Shown here one piece after another: positions 1,860 through 24,589 of a stretch of 40,589 nt of DNA. The position numbers and the translations under genes were made by a program. Each line of letters begins with the position of its first letter. Position 1 is the stretch's first letter. This stretch comes from Chloroflexota bacterium (GTDB lineage Bacteria > Chloroflexota > UBA11872 > VXOZ01), in contig JAAXIC010000042.1 of assembly GCA_012270555.1 (NCBI GenBank), positions 1-40,589 of the forward strand, written 5' to 3'. Under the pieces are notes generated by a model, which made no database searches, was not told where the DNA came from, and saw only the letters and a list, made by a program, of their open reading frames with translations.

Positions 1860-3449
1860 ATGCGGTCTATTCGCGTCTCGATATTTTCCACTATCTTTGT
1901 CTTACTCCTCACTGCGTTAGCCCTACCCGGCAGCTTTGTACAGGCGGCGGGTCCGCTTGCCGGCAGAGTTATCGTCATTGACCCCGGACACGGCGGAGAA
2001 GACCCAGGAGCCGTTGTTAATGGCTTCAAAGAAAAAGACGTCAATATCCAGATTGCTCTCAAGCTCAAAGCGTTATTGGAGAGTGCTGGCGCCGCCACTG
2101 TATACACGCGAGTTGACGACTCGACCCTGGGGATCAGCGCCAATCACCGCAGATCAGACCTGGAAGCCCGCCTGCAGATAGCAAACCAATCGAATGGGGA
2201 CATTTTCGTTTCAATCCATGCGAACTCTTTGGCGGATGCTTCACGCACGGGAGTGGTTGTCTTCTATGGACCTAAGAGTGGTTACCTGTACCCGCACACA
2301 CGTCCACCGGAACTCATAGCCCAGAGCAGGAACCTTGCAGACTCGCTTCGTGATCAACTCAAGGAAATCACCAAAGCCGACGACCGCGGCGTACAGTCGG
2401 TGCCGTATTACATTCTTGGCAAGATCAACCTCCCGGCGGTACTCGCAGAAATAGGCACATTATCCAATTACGCGGAAGCGATCAAGCTCAATGACCCCAG
2501 CTACCAACAAAAAGTCGCGGCTTCTCTCTATAGGGGCATTTACACGTACTTTACGGAGCCGGACGGACGCTTTGTTGAAGACCTAACCATACCGGACGGT
2601 ACCGCAGTGCTGGCAGGCGGCAACTTTACGAAGACCTGGAGAGTCATGAATACCGGCGGAGTTCCCTGGAACGGAGACTATCGATTGGTCTTCAAAGGCA
2701 GAAATCAGTTCGGCGGGCCTGTGAGCGTGCCACTGCCCTACCTCATGCCCGGGCAGACCGGCGCAGTGAGTGTGAGACTGCGTGCTCCCACCGCATGCGG
2801 GGAATGTATGGGTGTCTGGAGCATGCAAGGGCCGGGCGGACTGAATCTTGGCGACGATTTGTGGGTGAGCATTGGGCTGCGTGACAAGCTGCCGACCGAT
2901 CCGGCGCCGCGAGTCAATAGCCCGGACGCGATTTACTATGCTCAGACTGGGCATAACATCTTCGGCGGATTTCGCAAGTTCTTCGAGACCAACGGCGGTA
3001 TCGACATCTTCGGCTATCCGCGCACTGAAGAGCTTATTGAAGACGGCAAGACCGTGCAGTATTTTCAACGCGCGCGCTTCGAATACCATCCGGAATACGC
3101 CGGCACACCCTACGAAGTCCAGCTTACGCTGCTCAGCTATCAGATTCGCAGTGGCGAGCCGCCGACCGCAAGGGTAGCGCCAATACCGACAACTGAGACG
3201 CAACAGTATTTTCCCGAAACCGGACATTCCGTGCACTTCGCGTTCCTGAAGTTCTTCCGCGAGAACGGTGGCATCTATATCTTTGGCTACCCCATCACGC
3301 AGGAGGTCATTGAAGACGGCAAGATCGTGCAGTATTTCCAACGTGCCCGTTTCGAGTATCACCCGCAACACGCCGGTACCCGTTACGAAGTACAACTAGG
3401 ACTCTTAGGCGACATAATTCTGCGCCAAAGGGCATTGCTCTTCGACTAA
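1860..3449 (+). CDS. Secreted N-acetylmuramoyl-L-alanine amidase with Ig-like domain and two C-terminal repeats
   Basis: The enzyme would cleave the amide bond between N-acetylmuramic acid and the L-alanine of peptidoglycan stem peptides outside the cytoplasm. A signal peptide covers residues 1 to about 29, ending VQA-A. The Amidase_3 (AmiC/CwlV) domain runs from about 35 to 230: DPGHGGEDPG carries the zinc ligand H44, E58 and H120 (SIHAN) complete the zinc site, and E197 in LAEIG is the likely catalytic acid. Residues about 240-340 resemble the NBR1-type Ig-like domain, with TKTWRVMNTGGVPW. Two homologous repeats of about 70 residues follow (about 360-428 and 450-518), each with IFGYP, QYFQRARFEYHP and a YEVQL motif. 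The repeats probably bind the cell wall or another surface polymer. At 529 residues it is much longer than a bare amidase. It is probably monocistronic. Confidence 0.9.
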   Translation: MRSIRVSIFSTIFVLLLTALALPGSFVQAAGPLAGRVIVIDPGHGGEDPGAVVNGFKEKDVNIQIALKLKALLESAGAATVYTRVDDSTLGISANHRRSDLEARLQIANQSNGDIFVSIHANSLADASRTGVVVFYGPKSGYLYPHTRPPELIAQSRNLADSLRDQLKEITKADDRGVQSVPYYILGKINLPAVLAEIGTLSNYAEAIKLNDPSYQQKVAASLYRGIYTYFTEPDGRFVEDLTIPDGTAVLAGGNFTKTWRVMNTGGVPWNGDYRLVFKGRNQFGGPVSVPLPYLMPGQTGAVSVRLRAPTACGECMGVWSMQGPGGLNLGDDLWVSIGLRDKLPTDPAPRVNSPDAIYYAQTGHNIFGGFRKFFETNGGIDIFGYPRTEELIEDGKTVQYFQRARFEYHPEYAGTPYEVQLTLLSYQIRSGEPPTARVAPIPTTETQQYFPETGHSVHFAFLKFFRENGGIYIFGYPITQEVIEDGKIVQYFQRARFEYHPQHAGTRYEVQLGLLGDIILRQRALLFD

Positions 3450-3536
3450 AGCACCAACGGAGGTGCTCTCCCAAAACTGAATGTACGTATATGTTGCCCA
3501 CACATATACGCACCGATCCTTCCTCCATTTTTCCTG

Positions 3537-3572
3537 ATGACAAGCCGCTCGTACGCCCGGGCGGCTTGTCAT
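3537..3572 (+). terminator. Hairpin terminator-like structure after the amidase gene
   Basis: A perfect 12-base stem (3537-3548 with 3561-3572) surrounds a 12-base loop, and the right arm runs into TTAAT. The U-tract is short, so termination efficiency is uncertain. A smaller hairpin with a 6-base stem sits right at the stop codon (3450-3467). The rest of the 407-base gap (3450-3856) holds the lon promoter region and no convincing gene. Confidence 0.55.
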
Positions 3573-3725
3573 TTAATGCGCTAGCCTCAAGAGGCACGCG
3601 GCACGTGCTGCTCAATGCCGAGCCCTCATCGATCCCGGTTGCGCCCATGAGGCATGGTCCCGTGAGTTGGTTGTAATTGTCTGGATTTCAGTATGCCTCT
3701 GGGCCAAGCTTCAACTACAGCACGC

Positions 3726-3754
3726 TTGCCATATCTCATACGTCTGTGTAGAAT
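3726..3754 (+). promoter_or_regulatory. Possible second, upstream promoter for lon
   Basis: TTGCCA at 3726-3731 and TAGAAT at 3749-3754 are separated by 17 bases. This is weaker than the promoter at 3782-3810 but in the same orientation. It could give a second, HspR-independent start site, since it lies upstream of the HAIR-like repeat. Confidence 0.35.
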
Positions 3755-3780
3755 AATACTATGTCGCTTACTGTAGTTTA

Positions 3781-3801
3781 GTTGACACGCAGACACTCAA
3801 C
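3781..3801. promoter_or_regulatory. HAIR-like inverted repeat, candidate HspR operator
   Basis: GTTGACA, seven bases, then ACTCAAC matches the architecture of the HspR-associated inverted repeat, CTTGAGT-N7-ACTCAAG, at 10 of 14 positions with the same 21-base span. The outer arms GTTGA and TCAAC are perfectly symmetric. It covers the -35 box of the lon promoter, a typical repressor position, and an HspR homologue is encoded in the same cluster at 10126-10488. The assignment rests on the published HAIR consensus from actinobacteria and is an inference here. Confidence 0.55.
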
Positions 3802-3810
3802 CTGTAGAAT
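3782..3810 (+). promoter_or_regulatory. Strong sigma70-type promoter of the lon-dnaK heat-shock operon
   Basis: A full consensus -35 box TTGACA (3782-3787) is followed after exactly 17 bases by TAGAAT (3805-3810), five of six matches to the -10 consensus. Transcription would begin near 3817, about 40 bases before the lon start codon. The -35 box lies inside the HAIR-like inverted repeat at 3781-3801, so a bound repressor would block RNA polymerase. Confidence 0.7.
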
Positions 3811-3856
3811 GTTCGTAGTGAAGTCTTCCTACGGGAATGCATGAGGATGCTTTCGT

Positions 3857-6334
3857 ATGGCAGAACAGCCGGAAAAGAGATCAAGCACTGACGAAACCGC
3901 GACCGATGCAGGCCTGTTGCGCCTGCCGGTGGTGGTTCTCACAGATTCCGTAGTCTTCCCGTACATGACGGTGCCGTTGCGGCTGGAAGACGAAGCAGCG
4001 TTCCGGGCCGTTTCGGCGGCAACGGAGGGCGACCATAAGGTCTTGCTGCTTACGCCGGATAAGGAATTCAACCTGCAGCGCCCGAAGCGGGAGCATGCCG
4101 GCACCGTCGGCACCATTGCCGGCGTAGGTCAGCTCATTCGTCTCCCTGACGGCAAGCATCAGGCCCTTTTCCAAGGGCAACAACGGGGCCGTCTGCATAG
4201 CATTTGGAAGAAAAAGCACTTGATCGCGGAGGTGGAGGTTGTCGAAGAGGTCGTCGAGACGACGTTGGAAACCGAAGCGCTTGTGCGCAGCGTCATCAAC
4301 CAAATCGAAGCATACGTAGAGAAAGAGCCTCAAGTACCGCGTGACGCGGTGGCGGTAGCGCGGGGTATGGACGATCCCGGACGCCTTGCGGACCTCTTTG
4401 GCTACGCGCCGGAACTGACCCTCGACGAGCGGCGCACTTTGCTAAACATCACCGATCCGGTGGAGCGCTTGCAGCGCGTCTACCGCATCATGGCCCGGCA
4501 GTTGCAAATCTCCGAGGTCAAGGCGCGCATCCAGGGCGAGATCCAGCAAGGCATGGAAAAAGCCCAGCGTGAGTACTACCTCCGGGAACAACTCAAGGCA
4601 ATTCATCGCGAACTGGGAGAGACCAACCCGCAACTGGCGGAAATCGAAGAGATCAAGAAAGCAATCGAAGACTCGGATATGCCGGCTGAGGTAAAAGATA
4701 AGGCGCGCCACGAAGCCGGACGGCTCGGCAATATGCCGTCGGCTTCCCCTGAAGTCGGCATTGTGCGCAGTTACCTGGAGTGGCTCCTCGGCTTGCCGTG
4801 GGAGAACGGTTCCGATGAGGACATTGACATAAGTCATGTCAAGACGGTTCTCGACCAGGATCACTACGGGCTAAACAAAGTTAAGGACCGGATACTCGAG
4901 TACCTGGCGGTGCGTAGCCTTGCCAAACATGCGCGCACCCCCATCCTCTGCCTCATCGGCCCGCCGGGAGTTGGCAAGACATCGCTTGGCCGTTCCATTG
5001 CGCGCGCCTTGGATCGCAAGTTCGTCCGCATTAGTTTGGGCGGCGTGCGCGATGAGGGCGAGATCAGGGGACATCGCCGCACCTATATTGGCGCGCTGCC
5101 CGGCAGGATCATTCAGGGCATGCGCCAAGGCGGTGTGGTCAATCCGGTATTCGTGCTGGATGAAATCGATAAGCTCGGCTACGACTTCCGTGGCGATCCT
5201 TCCAGCGCCATGCTTGAAGTGCTCGATCCCGAACAGAACTTCAGCTTCTCCGATCACTATCTCGAAGTTCCCTATGACCTCTCGAATGTCCTGTTCATTG
5301 CGACGGGAAACCTGATGGAGACTATTCCGCCGGCTCTCCTCGACCGTATGGAAGTGATCAACATTTCCGGCTACACGGAGGAAGAGAAGCTCCACATCGC
5401 GCGGGGCTACTTGGTTCCAAGACAGCTCAAGCAGCACGGACTTACAAAATCGCAATGCAAGATGACGGATGACGGTCTGCGCAAAGTAATCCGAGGCTAC
5501 ACCGCCGAAGCCGGTGTGCGGAACTTAGAACGGCAGATTGCCACCATCGATCGGAAAGTTGCGCGCATGGTGGCCGCAGAGGAGCAGAAGTCCGTGCGCA
5601 TCGGCCCGCGCCGCGTACAGGAACTGTTGGGCCCGGAAAAGGTCAACACGAAGCTTGACAAGCGTAAGGATGAGGTCGGCGTGGTCACGGGTTTGGCCTG
5701 GACCGCCGCCGGTGGCGAGATCAGCACGGTAGAAGCAGCCCTTATGAAAGGCAAAGGCAATCTCATCTTGACCGGGCAACTCGGCGAAGTCATGCAGGAG
5801 TCTGCGATGACCGCGCTCTCCTTTGCCCGCGCCAAGGCGCGTTCATTCGAAATTGCCTCAAACGTAATCGAGGGCAATGACCTCCACGTGCACGTGCCCG
5901 CCGGCGCCGTGCCCAAGGAAGGGCCGTCCGCCGGGGTGGCGCTGGCGACCTCGATTGTCTCCATCTTTACCCAGCGTCCCGTAAGCAAGGACGTCGCCAT
6001 GACCGGCGAGGTCACGCTGCGGGGCCGCGTGCTGCCGGTGAGCGGGCTTAAGGAAAAGCTGCTTGCCGCGCACCGTGCCGGAGTGCAATCTGTGGTTCTT
6101 CCCAGCAAGAACAGGCACAGTCTGGAGGATGTGCCGAAAGAAGCGCTCGATGAGTTGCGCATCATTTGGGCTGAAACCATGGATGACGTGCTCGACGCGG
6201 CGCTGCTGAGGGCCGCTCCCACTGAGAAGCGCAAGACAAAACACCCAAAGAGAAAGCGACGGCTCTCTACGCCAACGCCGGAGAGTCACCCGGTTGTAAC
6301 ACCCATTAGTCCAACGCTAGCTGAGGAGGCATGA
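3857..6334 (+). CDS. lon: ATP-dependent protease Lon (La)
   Basis: Lon is a cytoplasmic AAA+ serine protease that degrades misfolded and short-lived regulatory proteins. The 825 residues show the usual order. The N-terminal substrate-binding LON domain runs from about 20 to 215, a helical region follows, and the AAA+ module carries GPPGVGKT at about 368-375 and the Walker B segment VFVLDEIDK. The C-terminal protease domain carries the Ser-Lys dyad: S691 in PKEGPSAG and the second lysine of [10 protein letters not shown]734. A basic tail of about 40 residues follows the protease domain. The start is supported by GAGGA at 3843-3847, nine bases upstream. lon is the first gene of the heat-shock cluster and its stop codon overlaps the longer dnaK start (ATGA), so the genes are co-transcribed. 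Regulation by HspR is likely from the upstream repeat. Confidence 0.96.
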
Positions 6335-6339
6335 CAGAG

Positions 6340-8310
6340 ATGGGAAAGATCATTGGCATTGACCTCGGTACGACGAATTCCGTGGTCGCGGTAATGGAAG
6401 GTGGCGATCCTGTCGTCATCCCAACGTCGGAGGGTGGAGACCTCTGCCCTTCGGTCGTGGGTTTCACCAAGAGCGAAGAGCGCTTGGTAGGCCAGTTGGC
6501 CCGGCGGCAAGCCGTGCTGAACCCGGAGAATACGGTGTCGTCCATCAAGCGCTTCATGGGCCATCGTGAAGATGAAGTGCAAGATGAGGGCCGACGGGTA
6601 GCGTATTCAATTTCCAAGGGGCCTAAAGGTGAGGCAAGGGTAGCGGTGCCGGCTTTGGGCAAGGACTTCACGCCGGAGGAAATCTCCGCGATGATCCTGC
6701 AGAAGCTCAAGGGCGACGCGGAGAAATACTTGGGTGAGGAGGTTACGCAAGCCGTAATCACCGTGCCGGCGTATTTTAACGACAGCCAACGCCAGGCAAC
6801 GAAGAATGCCGGTCAGATTGCAGGCTTGGAGGTGCTGCGCATCATCAATGAGCCGACCGCGGCTTCTTTGGCCTATGGCCTTGACAAGAAGACCACCGAG
6901 ACCATCTTGGTCTGGGACCTGGGCGGCGGCACATTTGACGTCTCGATACTTGAAGTCGGTGACGGTGTTTTCGAAGTAAAGTCCACGGCCGGCGACACAC
7001 ATCTGGGTGGAGACGACTACGACGACAGGATCGTCAGCCACCTCGCCGAGCAGTTCCAAAACGATGAAGGCATCGATCTGCGCAAAGACCGCCAAGCGTT
7101 GCAACGCTTGATCGAAGCGGCGGAGAAGGCCAAGATCGAGCTCTCCACCATGGTCCAGACGGAGATCAACCTGCCGTACATTACCGCCGACCAGAACGGC
7201 CCCAAGCATCTCTCCAACACGCTGTCGCGCGCGCGGTTCGAGGACTTGACCGCAACCCTGACCGAGCGTACGAAGAGACCATTCCAGCAAGCCCTGAACG
7301 ACGCCGGGCTTAGTCCCAACGACATCGATGAAGTAGTCCTCGTGGGCGGCGCGACGCGCATGCCGGTGATTCAGGAATTGGTCAAGAAGCTCATCGGCAA
7401 AGACCCGCACCAGGGTGTAAATCCGGACGAGGTCGTGGCCGTTGGCGCGGCCATTCAGGCCGGTGTGCTGGGCGGCGAGGTGCAGGATGTGGTCCTGCTC
7501 GACGTCACCCCGCTGAGCTTGGGCGTCGAGACGCTCGGCGGCGTCTTTACCAAGATGATTGAACGCAACACGACTGTCCCCACGCGCAAGAGCGAGATAT
7601 TCTCAACCGCGCAGGACGGCCAGAGCGCGGTAGACATTATGGTCTTCCAGGGTGAACGCCCGATGGCGAAAGACAACATGCTCTTGGGCCAATTCCGGCT
7701 GGAGGGCATTCCGCCCGCGCCGCGGGGAGTGCCGCAGGTTGACGTTACCTTCGATATCGATGCCAACGGCATCCTGAACGTGACGGCGAAAGACTTGGGC
7801 AGCGGCAAAGAACAGAACGTCACCATCCACGCGTCCACGACCCTCAGCAAAGAGCAGGTGGACCAGATGGTCAAAGAGGCTGAAGAGCACGCTGACGATG
7901 ACCGCGCTCGCGCCGAAGAGGTTGAGTTGCGCAATCGCGCGGATACGCTCTTGTATCAAACGGAACGCACGCTCAAGGACCTTGGGGAAGAGGATGTCCC
8001 TCAGGAGGACCGCGCGGCCGTCGAGAGCGCTCTCGAAAATCTGCGCGAGGCACTCAAGGGAGATGACACCGCGAGCATCAACGCAGCAGTGGAAGAGGTG
8101 CAGCAGGCCTCTATGAAGATCGGTGAGGCCATGTATGCCAAGGCCGGCGCGGCGCAAGGAGAGGACGGCGATCCGGTAGGCGCTGCGACAGGCCCGCAGG
8201 CAAGCAACGGCGACGGCAGCGACGACACGGTCGTTGACGCTGAGTTTCGTGCCACAGATGAGTCCGACGCTGAGGACAAGGCTGATGCGTCAGGAAGTGA
8301 GAAGCGCTAG
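6340..8310 (+). CDS. dnaK: Chaperone protein DnaK (Hsp70)
   Basis: DnaK binds exposed hydrophobic segments of unfolded proteins in an ATP-driven cycle with DnaJ and GrpE. The nucleotide-binding domain starts with [15 protein letters not shown] and includes [16 protein letters not shown] and [15 protein letters not shown]. The substrate-binding domain begins at about residue 390 ([14 protein letters not shown]). The alpha-helical lid is followed by an acidic tail. It is about 656 residues long, normal for the family. Two ATG codons are possible, at 6331 and 6340. GAGGAGG at 6323-6329 is only one base from the first but ten from the second, and the second gives the classic Met-Gly-Lys start, so 6340 is preferred. 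If 6331 is used, it overlaps the lon stop by four bases. Confidence 0.97.
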
Positions 8311-8357
8311 AGCGGAGCTGGCTCAATGAGCCGGCCGCTGTGGGAGGAATGAAACTC

Positions 8358-9005
8358 ATGGCACGATCAAGAAACGTCGAACAATCAAAAGACGAAGACT
8401 CGCACATCCACGTTGCTGAATCGGCGCAAAGTCAGGACTCTTCAGTCGATGGCGGCGAGGGAGATCTCGCGGCAGAACCGTCGGCCCCTGAGGCACCGTG
8501 GGAAGAGCAACTTGCTACTGCCACGCAGGAAGCCGAGACGTACAAGGATAGATTCCTGCGCGCCCGGGCCGATCTGGAGAACTACCGCAAACGGTCGATT
8601 CAGTCCATTACGGAGGGTGTCCGCGACGGTCAGAGGCAGACGTTTGAGGCTATCTTGCCCGTCATCGACAACCTCGAACGAGCCGTGGACTATCAGGAGC
8701 AGCACAAGACAGACTCCGTAGAAGACCTGCTCACCGGCGTCCGCATGACCTTGTGGCAGCTCCGCGAAGTGTTAGAGCGCCAGGAGGTAAAGCGCATTGC
8801 AGCCTTAGGCGAGACTTTCGATCCGCGCTATCACGAGGCGGTTGAGGTCCAGCCCGCTGACGGCGAGGTGGAAGCCGACACTGTAGTTGGAGAGATTCAG
8901 GCGGGCTATCTCTTTGGCGACGCGGTCCTGCGACCCGCCAAAGTGCGCGTGGCCCAACCGCGCCGAACGGCCGCTACCGATGAAGAACCGCTGGAGACCA
9001 CCTGA
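8358..9005 (+). CDS. grpE: Nucleotide exchange factor GrpE
   Basis: GrpE promotes ADP release from DnaK. The 215-residue protein has an acidic, low-complexity N-terminus, a long coiled coil (AETYKDRFLRARADLENYRKR, about residues 60-100) and the C-terminal beta domain with ETFDPRYHEAV and VGEIQAGYLFGDAVLRPAKV, which contacts DnaK. GTG 8340, ATG 8349 and ATG 8358 are all in frame. GGAGG at 8343-8347 is ten bases from 8358 and leaves no spacing for 8349, so 8358 is chosen. The gap after dnaK is only 47 bases, consistent with one operon. That gap contains a short hairpin (CCGGC-type) but no clear terminator. Confidence 0.95.
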   Translation: MARSRNVEQSKDEDSHIHVAESAQSQDSSVDGGEGDLAAEPSAPEAPWEEQLATATQEAETYKDRFLRARADLENYRKRSIQSITEGVRDGQRQTFEAILPVIDNLERAVDYQEQHKTDSVEDLLTGVRMTLWQLREVLERQEVKRIAALGETFDPRYHEAVEVQPADGEVEADTVVGEIQAGYLFGDAVLRPAKVRVAQPRRTAATDEEPLETT

Positions 9006-9059
9006 GCGGCGCTAGGTCTCATGGTCTAGAGCTACACCTTGGACTGTAGAGAGAATGTG

Positions 9060-10073
9060 ATGGAGTTCAAGGACTACTACAAGGTACTGGGCGTAACGCC
9101 AAAGTCTTCGACGAAAGAAATCAAGGAGACCTATCGGCGGCTTGCCCGCAAGTATCACCCGGACGTAAACCCCGGGGACACCAGCGCGGAAGAGCGCTTC
9201 AAGGAAATCAATGAGGCGTATGAGGCGCTCCGGGATGAGAAGAAGCGGGCACGCTACGACCAGGTACGCGCTGCTCACCAATCCGGGCGTTCTTGGCAAA
9301 CCCAGGCGCGCCGGGGCGCCGGTGACGGCTTCCCGTTTGACCTAGGGGGTTTGGGTGGCATTGACTTTGAGAACCTCGGACGCGGCAATAAGGGTTCCGG
9401 CGGCTTCTCCGACTTCTTCGAAACGCTCTTCGGTCGCGCGCAGCAGGCGGGCGACCAACAAGGCCGAGACCTAGAGCAGGAAATCGAAGTCACGTTGGCC
9501 GAAGCGTATGCGGGCACCCAACGGACGTTTAGTCTGCAAGTTCCAGGCCAATGCCCGGCCTGCGCTGGGTCGGGACGCATAGAGAGCATGGTGTGCACCA
9601 TATGCCGGGGCAGTGGTTCCCAGACGCGGCAGCGTCGCCTCGACGTGAAGATCCCCGCCGGCGTGCGTGAAGGATCGCGCATCCGCGTCGCGGGGGAAGG
9701 GCATCCCGGGAGAAACGGGGAGCGCGGCAATCTCTATCTGATCGTAAGGATCGCGCCGGATTCCCGCTTCGAGTTGCAGTCGGACGATCTGCACGTGACC
9801 GTGCCAGTGGACCTGGTGGACGCGGTCTTGGGCGCTGAGATTCCGGTAACGACGCCGGACGGCAAGAGCGTGATGATGCGCATTCCGGTGGAGACACAGA
9901 ACGGACAGGTGTTTCGTCTTGCCGGTCAAGGCATGCCCAGACTGAAGGGCGGCGCACGCGGCGGCTTGTTCGTGCGTGTGCGGGTTCGCTTGCCGAAAGG
10001 GCTGACGCCTCGTGAGAAGGAACTCTTTGCAGAGTTAGCGCAGCTTCGCAAGAGGAGTCCAGTCACGGCATAG
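9060..10073 (+). CDS. dnaJ: DnaJ-type Hsp40 co-chaperone with a reduced zinc-binding region
   Basis: This co-chaperone stimulates the DnaK ATPase and delivers substrates. The J domain occupies residues 1-70, with HPD at 33-35. A Gly/Phe-rich linker runs from about 75 to 135. The C-terminal beta domains (DLEQEIEVTLAEAYAGT onward) and the dimerisation tail complete the 337 residues. The zinc region has only two cysteine motifs (C165-x2-C168 in CPACAGSG and C179-x2-C182 in CTICRGSG) instead of the four of classical DnaJ, so it can form only one four-cysteine site. It is thus intermediate between DnaJ and CbpA types. An in-frame TTG at 9039 exists, but ATG 9060 gives the conserved start and has a GAGAGA sequence just upstream. 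Its position between grpE and hspR supports the dnaJ role. Confidence 0.9.
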   Translation: MEFKDYYKVLGVTPKSSTKEIKETYRRLARKYHPDVNPGDTSAEERFKEINEAYEALRDEKKRARYDQVRAAHQSGRSWQTQARRGAGDGFPFDLGGLGGIDFENLGRGNKGSGGFSDFFETLFGRAQQAGDQQGRDLEQEIEVTLAEAYAGTQRTFSLQVPGQCPACAGSGRIESMVCTICRGSGSQTRQRRLDVKIPAGVREGSRIRVAGEGHPGRNGERGNLYLIVRIAPDSRFELQSDDLHVTVPVDLVDAVLGAEIPVTTPDGKSVMMRIPVETQNGQVFRLAGQGMPRLKGGARGGLFVRVRVRLPKGLTPREKELFAELAQLRKRSPVTA

Positions 10074-10125: not shown

Positions 10126-10488
10126 ATGAGTATTCGCTTCGAGGGTGAAGGGCTATTCTTTGCAATTGGCGTAGTGGCTGAGAGACTGCGTGTTCATCCC
10201 CAAACGCTGCGGCACTACGAGCGTCTCGGCTTGGTCAAACCCCGCCGTTCAAAAGGGAACGTGCGTCTCTACTCGCACGCCGACTTGGAGCGAATGGAGC
10301 AGATCCAGCGGTTAGTGAACGACCTCGGCGTCAATCTCGCCGGGGTGGAAGTAATCCTCAATCTCACCGAGCGCATGGAGCGGCTGCAAGCAGAAATGGA
10401 AGAGAAGCTCACCGCACAGCAAGAACAATACGAAGCTGAGATTGCCCGGCTCAAGGGCCTATTGCAGCGTGTGACGAGGAACTATTAG
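10126..10488 (+). CDS. hspR: MerR-family heat-shock repressor HspR
   Basis: HspR represses chaperone genes by binding HAIR repeats, often with DnaK as co-repressor. The 120-residue protein has the MerR winged helix at about 12-80: IGVVAERLRVHPQTLRHYERLGLVKPRRSKGNVRLYS includes the recognition helix and the wing. A C-terminal coiled coil (about 80-115) follows, and there are no metal-binding cysteines. The gene lies 52 bases after dnaJ, the same order (dnaK-grpE-dnaJ-hspR) as in actinobacteria. A candidate HAIR operator is in front of lon at 3781-3801. I found no second HAIR-like site directly before hspR or clpC, so both are probably read from the lon promoter or from promoters I cannot recognise. 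Confidence 0.9.
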   Translation: MSIRFEGEGLFFAIGVVAERLRVHPQTLRHYERLGLVKPRRSKGNVRLYSHADLERMEQIQRLVNDLGVNLAGVEVILNLTERMERLQAEMEEKLTAQQEQYEAEIARLKGLLQRVTRNY

Positions 10489-10617: not shown

Positions 10618-13101
10618 ATGGCGTGGAATGACCGTTTCACGACAAAGGCGCAGGAGGCTCTTGCCAAGGCGCAAGAGCTAATGCTCCAGCAAAACCATAA
10701 TCAGCTTGACACTGAGCATATTATGCTGGCGCTGCTTCAGCAGAATGATGGCCTGGTGCCGCAAATGCTGGGCACCCTCAATGTCGATACGAGACAACTT
10801 GAGCAACGGTTGGAAGAGGCACTGCGGCCGCGGCCGCATGTGTCGTTCGGTCAGGGCGGACAAGCCCAGTACTACCTAACACCGCGCGCCAAGCGGGTGC
10901 TTGAGTTGGCTGAAAGAGAGGCGGCACGCCTCAAGGATGAGTACGTTGGCACCGAACATCTCTTGATCGCAATATCCGTGGCCGAGGACGGTGATGCGCA
11001 CCAGCTCCTGCAGGAGGCCGGTGTCGATCGCGAGAAGGTCTATCAGGCGCTGGAAAAAGTGCGTGGGTCCCACCGCGTTACCGACCCGGAAGCGGAATCC
11101 AAGTACCGTATGCTGGAGCGATTCGGTCTCGATCTCACGCAATTCGCGCGCAATGAGCAGCTCGATCCAGTCATTGGACGAGATGAAGAGATCCGCAGGG
11201 TCATACAGATACTCTCACGGCGCACCAAGAATAACCCCGTTCTCATGGGCGAACCGGGTGTCGGCAAGACTGCCATTGTCGAAGGCCTAGCACAACGCAT
11301 CGTAAGTGGAGATGTCCCGGAGCAAGTTCGCGAAAAGCGCGTCATTGCCTTGGATATGGCCGCGCTGCTGGCAGGCGCCAAGTTTCGCGGGGAATTCGAG
11401 GAGCGTCTCAAAGGCGTCGTAGAAGAGGTGCAAAAGGCCAAGCGCGAGGTCATCCTCTTCATCGACGAACTCCACACCGTCGTAGGCGCGGGCGGCGCCG
11501 AAGGCGCCATCGATGCAGCCAACATCCTCAAGCCGGCGCTGGCGCGCGGGGAGTTGCAAGTCATTGGCGCCACGACACTGGATGAATATCGCCGGTATAT
11601 CGAGAGAGACTCTGCCCTGGAAAGACGTTTTCAGCCGGTATACGTAGATGAACCTTCCCTAGAGGACGCAATAGCGATCCTGCAAGGGTTGCGGGATAAG
11701 TATGAGGAACATCATAGGCTGACCATTGACGACAGCGCCCTAACCGCGGCGGCGAAACTATCGCACCGCTACCTTACTGAGCGCTACTTGCCGGACAAAG
11801 CGATCGACCTCGTCGATGAGGCGGCGGCAAAGGTGCGCATGGAGATCTTCAGCATGCCGGAGGAGATCAAGGCACTTGAAAGCCGGCTCAAAGAGTGTGA
11901 GCGGGAAGAGGAGACCGCCTGGCAAGAACGGGACTACGAGAAGGCCGCCAACTTTCGTACTGAGCGCCTGCGCTTGCAGGAGGAGTATGAATCTGCCCGC
12001 CAGGAGTGGCTTGGCAGCCAAGAGATACGTGATGAGGTTGACGCCAAAGATGTTGCCGAAGTGCTCGCCAAGTGGACCGGCATTCCGGTGGCGCAACTCT
12101 TCCAGGAAGAAGCCGAAAAGCTCTTGCAGATGGAAGCGGAACTCCACAAACGCATCGTGAGCCAGGAAGAAGCTGTCGTGGCGGTTTCCGAAGCAATCCG
12201 CCGTTCGCGCTCCGGTCTGGCCAACCCCAAGCGTCCCATTGGCAGTTTTCTCTTCGTCGGGCCTACCGGCGTCGGCAAGACGGAACTGGCGCGGGCACTG
12301 GCGGAGTTCATGTTCGACGATGAAGATGCGCTGGTGCGCATCGACATGTCAGAGTATCGAGAGCGGCACAGCGTGAGCCGCCTCATTGGCGCGCCGCCCG
12401 GGTATGTTGGCTTTGAAGAAGGCGGACAGTTGACGGAAGCCGTACGGCGGCGACCGTACCGGGTGGTGCTCTTCGATGAAATCGAAAAAGCCCACACCGA
12501 CGTGTTCAATACGTTGCTTCAGGTCATGGAAGACGGGCGTTTGACCGACGGTCACGGGCATGTTGTCGACTTCCGCAATACCGTCATCATCATGACATCA
12601 AACGTCGGGACCAACGTGCTGAATTCCAACGGCATGCTGGGCTTTCAGCCAGGCGGCACCGAGGAGGAACGGGAGGACTTCGAGTCAACCAGGGCAAAGC
12701 TCCATAGGGAACTGCGGCAGACGTTCCGCCCCGAGTTTCTTAACCGCATTGATGAGATCATCGTCTTCCACTACTTGAACAAACTGCAACTACAAGACGT
12801 GGTTGAACGCATGCTCTCCGAGGTGCGGCAGCGCTTGGAAGAGCGGGACGTCACGCTTGACGTGAGTCCCGCGGCGAAGGCATGGCTGGTCGAAAACGGG
12901 TACGATCATGACTACGGTGCTCGGCCCATGCGTAGGCTTGTACAACGAGAGATCGAGAATGTGCTCGCCAAGATGTTGCTTGACGGCACGCTTGCTGAAG
13001 GCTACCGCGTAACGGTAGAATTGCAAGAGGACACGCTGCATTTTACCACCGGACAGCGTTCTTTAACCGAGGACGTGCCAGTGGAAGCTGCCGTACTGTA
13101 A
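10618..13101 (+). CDS. clpC: ClpC-type AAA+ protein unfoldase
   Basis: This is a hexameric ATPase that unfolds proteins, probably for degradation by ClpP. The 827 residues contain a Clp N-domain (two repeats, about 5-145) and a first AAA+ module with GEPGVGKT at 211-218. A short middle region (about 415-465) includes a UVR-like motif, [21 protein letters not shown] second AAA+ module carries GPTGVGKT at about 548-555. The middle domain is much shorter than the long coiled-coil propeller of ClpB disaggregases. A Leu-Gly-Phe tripeptide at 674-676 sits where ClpC and ClpA carry the ClpP-docking loop, which ClpB lacks. I therefore call it ClpC rather than the ClpB expected beside HspR. No clpP gene is in the window. 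The start is ATG 10618 in the context GGATCATGGCG; no strong ribosome-binding site is obvious. Confidence 0.9.
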
Positions 13102-24570: not shown

Positions 24571-24589
24571 ACTTGACACTGCCTCAAGT
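24571..24589. promoter_or_regulatory. Perfect palindrome over the pspA promoter, candidate operator
   Basis: ACTTGA (24571-24576), seven bases, then TCAAGT (24584-24589) form a perfect inverted repeat. It overlaps the -10 box and the predicted transcription start of the pspA promoter, the position of a classical repressor site. Its arms resemble the outer arms of HAIR elements but with a spacing four bases shorter, so HspR binding is doubtful. The regulator is unknown. Confidence 0.5.

Follow-up and report, generated by a model that had tools for sequence, protein, structure and literature searches.

A HAIR-like operator over the lon promoter of a Chloroflexota chaperone operon, with HspR as its predicted reader

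Is the inverted repeat that overlaps the lon promoter of a Chloroflexota bacterium an operator for the heat-shock repressor encoded in the same gene cluster, or an ordinary promoter beside a fortuitous repeat? The locus lies in a stretch of 40,589 nucleotides (contig JAAXIC010000042.1 of assembly GCA_012270555.1), referred to here as the window, and its features are collected in Table 1. An earlier note, made from the sequence alone, had described a TTGACA-N17-TAGAAT promoter with its -35 box embedded in an inverted repeat, and had attributed to this repeat the exact 7-7-7 geometry of HspR sites and 10 of 14 consensus matches. Direct reading confirms the promoter, the geometry and the match count. 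The promoter, 47 bp upstream of lon, scores 11/12 in a consensus promoter scan, the top score within positions 3350-3900. Compared with CTTGAGT-N7-ACTCAAG, the left arm matches at 4/7 and the right arm at 6/7 positions. The arms pair with each other at 5/7 positions, and both inner pairs are mismatched because the left arm has CA, from the -35 box, in place of GT. The comparisons below argue that HspR, whose gene lies four genes downstream, very probably uses the repeat as its operator, which is fused to the sigma-70 promoter of lon-dnaK-grpE-dnaJ-hspR(-clpC).

Table 1. Predicted features of the lon operon and its upstream region (positions in the window)
Feature	Position	Strand	Basis or remark
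Upstream tandem promoter candidate TTGCCA-N17-TAGAAT	3726..3754	+	without operator arms; about 30 bp upstream of operator
HAIR-like HspR operator GTTGACA-CGCAGAC-ACTCAAC	3781..3801	+	sequence, conserved arms with variable centre, genome-wide pattern scans
Left operator arm GTTGACA	3781..3787		
-35 box TTGACA	3782..3787	+	within left operator arm
Spacer CGCAGAC	3788..3794		
Right operator arm ACTCAAC	3795..3801		
-10 box TAGAAT	3805..3810	+	17 nt (3788-3804) past -35 box
lon (endopeptidase La)	3857..6334	+	TIGR00763, 913 bits, cut-off 608; first gene of operon
dnaK	6331..8310	+	start overlaps lon stop (ATGA)
grpE	8340..9005	+	
dnaJ	9039..10073	+	
hspR, MerR-type heat-shock repressor	10126..10488	+	NF047375; proposed binder of 3781-3801
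clpC-like Clp ATPase	10618..13101	+	below ClpB cut-off; probably read-through expression

As a single sequence, a 10/14 match to the HAIR consensus is weak and unremarkable evidence. It proves little because the window contains 14 sites with at least 10/14 matches in the same geometry, the one over the lon promoter and 13 others. The combination with the promoter is rarer: of the 10 TTGACA hexamers on the + strand of the window, the -35 box of lon is the one followed by CTCAA at the right distance, and STTGAN9ACTCAAS has a single occurrence in the 3.18-Mb genome, at this site. What carries the site far past chance, judging from the sequence comparisons, is its conservation.

The proposal had been accompanied, beforehand, by a check for conserved arms around a variable centre in relatives, and the site passed it at two depths. 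Within the genus, GTTGA[C/T]A-N7-ACTCAA[C/G] is present in all five species having lon upstream sequence, while the seven-base centre differs in each of them and most intergenic flanks have diverged. Among 16 divergent lon promoters, drawn from the class plus a few relatives, arm positions L2-L5, L7 and R2-R6 are invariant (2.0 bits) and L6 reaches 1.66 bits with one exception. Spacer positions 1-6 carry 0.1-0.6 bits, leaving the spacer nearly free save for its last base. A -10-like hexamer stands at N17 (N18 in L099) in 15 of these sites; the exception, L057, has the operator arms and a poor -10 box. Conservation of the left arm could by itself stem from the -35 box. The right arm is no promoter element, and its conservation therefore cannot be explained by that of the -35 box.

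The genome-wide statistics rest on pattern searches with reversed-pattern controls. The strict fused promoter-operator pattern, TTGACA-N7-RCTCAA-N4-TA, gave 52 matches in 37 of the 41 class genomes, versus 1 for the reversed pattern. The gene that follows is lon in 35 cases and hsp20 (PF00011) in 16, and 1 case is unassigned. In a sample of the whole phylum the strict pattern occurs in 70 of 301 genomes, with 8 hits for its reverse. Of 27 loci inspected outside the class, 24 stand before grpE-dnaJ, dnaJ-hspR, dnaK or a clp gene; the site therefore tracks the hspR operon and heat-shock genes, whichever gene leads. Two of the three exceptions lie in genomes with no HspR or merely a weak MerR hit.

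Several sequences resembling the site were set aside or are recorded here in their own right. The genus-conserved TTGACACAATGARGCTCAA (G000:C52, L208), before a penicillin-binding-protein gene, has a centre that is conserved too and fails the stricter pattern; it was treated as chance. The intergenic palindrome CTTGACACTGCCTCAAG at 24572-24588, ahead of two solute-binding-protein genes, is a perfect CTTGA-N7-TCAAG and was rejected as an HspR site because its 7-mers stand 3 and not 7 bases apart. In one class genome the fused pattern is matched perfectly at L260 (G021:C19:185017-185041) with neither lon nor hsp20 directly after it; this match was left unassigned, and the start of a gene for a DksA/TraR-like zinc-finger protein lies some 400 bp further on.

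The earlier note had the gene order right (lon, dnaK, grpE, dnaJ, hspR, clpC, with hspR four genes past lon); aspS comes after the clpC-like gene, and most relatives in the class share the lon-to-clpC order. The hspR product passes the NCBIfam equivalog model NF047375 (HeatShock_HspR) by a narrow margin, 107.2 bits against a cut-off of 105, and its gene is encoded together with dnaK, grpE and dnaJ. Its near relatives, from Chloroflexota metagenome bins, have HspR proteins 90-98% identical. At residue 674 the clpC-like protein has an LGF motif, which is a putative ClpP loop. Neither a sigma-70-like promoter standing out nor a terminator was found in the gap between hspR and clpC. A separate clpC operator was rejected, as the scanned region yielded merely a 10/14 match and the gap no promoter-like site. 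Control of clpC would probably be exerted by read-through from the lon-operon promoter. The operator reading proposed at the outset is supported for the lon-dnaK-grpE-dnaJ-hspR operon; clpC would join the predicted feedback loop by read-through, with no HspR site of its own that stands out.

Genomes with and without HspR differ in the expected sense. Among 73 upstream regions of hspR operons, 47 contain a HAIR match of at least 10/14 with a spacer of 7. For spacers of 4-6 or 8-10 the count falls to 4-8, for the reversed consensus to 4, and shuffled sequences reach that score in 7.5% of cases; the 7-bp spacer of HAIR operators is strongly preferred. None of 54 lon and dnaK upstream regions from 15 HspR-negative Chloroflexota genomes (two of them, incomplete, belong to the same class, and there the absence of HspR is uncertain) reached at least 11/14. 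In that set 7 of the 54 scored 10/14 (1 of 27 for lon), near the shuffle rate. HAIR operators are thus found at heat-shock gene promoters, with no lon or dnaK excess in the HspR-negative genomes. The HrcA element CIRCE, TTAGCACTC-N9-GAGTGCTAA, has no match in the genome allowing up to 3 mismatches, and control through CIRCE/HrcA was rejected for want of any such site. In sum, a HAIR-like HspR operator over the lon promoter is supported by its conservation, by the NCBIfam HspR model and by the fact that the site follows the hspR operon and not lon alone.

In the class, hsp20 emerges from the pattern scans as the second target of the same fused element. The single-copy HSP20 gene of the genome itself (G000:C17, L254) is preceded by CTTGACA-GATAGAG-ACGCATG, with TAGAAT at N17. 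In two genus mates the right arm reads ACTCATG or ACTCATA, and it is kept as AC[G/T]CAT in six genus members. Despite its degenerate right arm, this hsp20 gene is likely a second, weaker HspR target.

The operator itself varies in parallel with its presumed reader. Sites that include the -35 box have CA (rarely TA) as the two inner left-arm bases, unpaired with the right arm. Five loci of Dehalococcoidia type (L088, L102, L106, L112 and L115) differ: their repeat is closer to the start codon and has GT at the inner bases, with an outer part of TCTGAGT or TATGAGT opposite ACTCAGA or a similar arm; L088 and L102 match at all 7 arm pairs. The HspR of these loci has HQQTIR instead of HPQTLR in its recognition region. 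Likewise, CTTGATA-N7-TATCAAG (or -TATCAGG) accompanies HAQSLR in L090 and L096. This parallel change, a correlation across few lineages, suggests HspR as the protein that reads the site. Whether the Chloroflexota HspR operator is maintained in two forms seems to us evenly balanced: these would be an asymmetric hybrid with the -35 box (CTTGACA-N7-RCTCAA) and a symmetric form away from it (TCTGAGT-N7-ACTCAGA or CTTGATA-N7-TATCAAG), the latter associated with HQQTIR or HAQSLR. If so, HspR tolerates the loss of two inner half-site contacts where RNA polymerase needs those bases, and repressor and operator have coevolved.

Two further conserved elements lie upstream of lon. Following the amidase gene, a block at 3520-3572 with the hairpin ATGACAAGCCGCTCGTACGCCCGGGCGGCTTGTCAT is identical among four species of the genus and nearly so in a fifth, amid much diverged surrounding sequence, with one copy per genome. 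It has no Rfam match, and no T-run follows the stem on the + strand. At 3483-3513 an inverted repeat, GTACGTATATGTTGCCCACACATATACGCAC, is terminator-like on the - strand, and its arms are kept in the genus.

A constitutive sigma-70 promoter, with a left arm kept merely as a -35 box and a fortuitous right arm, could account for the near-consensus TTGACA-N17-TAGAAT and draws on the 14 chance-level HAIR matches of the window. It does not account for a CTCAA right arm that is invariant at fixed distance in 16 divergent species while the spacer varies, nor for a pattern confined almost solely to positions before lon, hsp20 and hspR-operon genes, with the class-wide ratio of 52 to 1 control. This conservation already refutes it, and the genome-wide scan excludes CTCAA at the same distance at other TTGACA promoters; we give the constitutive promoter almost no credence. 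It is also very improbable that the operator belongs to some other regulator, such as another MerR-family protein or a different heat-shock regulator. The genome does encode further MerR-type proteins, with three matches. However, the sequence and its 7-bp spacer fit the published HspR operator, the site precedes the leading gene of the hspR operon, be it lon, dnaK, grpE or dnaJ, genomes that lack HspR show no excess before lon or dnaK, and operator and HspR recognition region co-vary in the Dehalococcoidia-type loci.

A different possibility concerns the effect of binding and not the identity of the reader: HspR could act chiefly as a roadblock or partial modulator, most transcription being carried by the tandem promoter at 3726-3754. 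The latter is kept in five species of the genus and may, being operator-less, provide HspR-independent or basal transcription of the lon operon. However, of the two promoters the fused one matches the consensus better and its element is conserved throughout the class, the upstream promoter having been compared within the genus. This roadblock role is unlikely.

With the repeat taken as an operator that represses the fused promoter, a circuit can be proposed. By analogy with HspR of Streptomyces and Mycobacterium, we infer that HspR binds the repeat and that the operon is induced by heat. In unstressed cells, an HspR dimer on the two half-sites would hide the -35 box and keep transcription low; since the operator covers this box, the bound dimer should exclude RNA polymerase. 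DnaK probably stabilises HspR on the operator as corepressor. Misfolded proteins that engage DnaK, or heat that unfolds HspR, would free the operator, and RNA polymerase would yield protease, chaperones and further HspR; repression would be restored as free DnaK rises. The circuit would form a feedback loop, with DnaK and HspR each encoded by the operon that they would control. The left half-site would represent a compromise, with the inner CA of TTGACA standing for the GT of HAIR, and the right half-site would keep RCTCAA. Repression of hsp20 by HspR would occur separately.

Most elements of this circuit have precedents. HspR of Streptomyces coelicolor binds and represses dnaK, clpB and lon (PMC2687793), and DnaK is an HspR corepressor (PMC10415612). 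According to PMC10415612 and to Bucca 2000 and 2003 as cited in PMC2687793, heat or the withdrawal of DnaK releases HspR. As proposed for the present locus, S. coelicolor encodes a MerR-type HspR in a dnaK-grpE-dnaJ-hspR operon under its own control, with the operator TTGAGY-N7-ACTCAA and lon as a direct in vivo target (PMC2687793). However, Streptomyces has lon as a separate transcription unit and three HAIR copies at its dnaK promoter (PMC6102357), whereas in the Chloroflexota locus lon heads the operon and a single operator contains TTGACA, the -35 box, in its left arm. In Helicobacter pylori and Campylobacter jejuni, repression at the cbpA promoter likewise depends on a HAIR-like repeat (PMC6102357). 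H. pylori HspR differs in protecting 70-80 bp and in acting with HrcA, whereas the Chloroflexota genome yielded no CIRCE-like element. Mycobacterium tuberculosis, of a different phylum, also has an HspR that represses dnaK-grpE-dnaJ-hspR with DnaK as corepressor, and clpB and the small heat-shock gene acr2 are targets. The acr2 gene is of the alpha-crystallin/hsp20 type, and a route for HspR turnover in mycobacteria passes via the Bpa-proteasome.

The switch, kept in sponge-associated and other Chloroflexota, is of a known kind, an ordinary HspR/HAIR circuit, and control of lon by HspR has a precedent in Streptomyces. The result is of moderate to low surprise. A description of HspR control in Chloroflexi or Dehalococcoides was not found in the open literature; entries in regulon databases are still possible. 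Novel aspects are the clade, the leading place of lon in the operon, hsp20 as a branch in the class and the hybrid of operator and -35 box; this hybrid and the matching HspR-operator changes in Dehalococcoidia-type genomes are slightly new points.

In Chloroflexota, lon would come under HspR control through its physical location as the leading gene of the operon. The analysis provides a testable heat-shock circuit for a mostly uncultured phylum that includes sponge symbionts, with a defined predicted regulon of lon, dnaK, grpE, dnaJ, hspR, probably clpC, and hsp20. Moreover, the natural variants of operator and repressor could reveal how HspR reads DNA.
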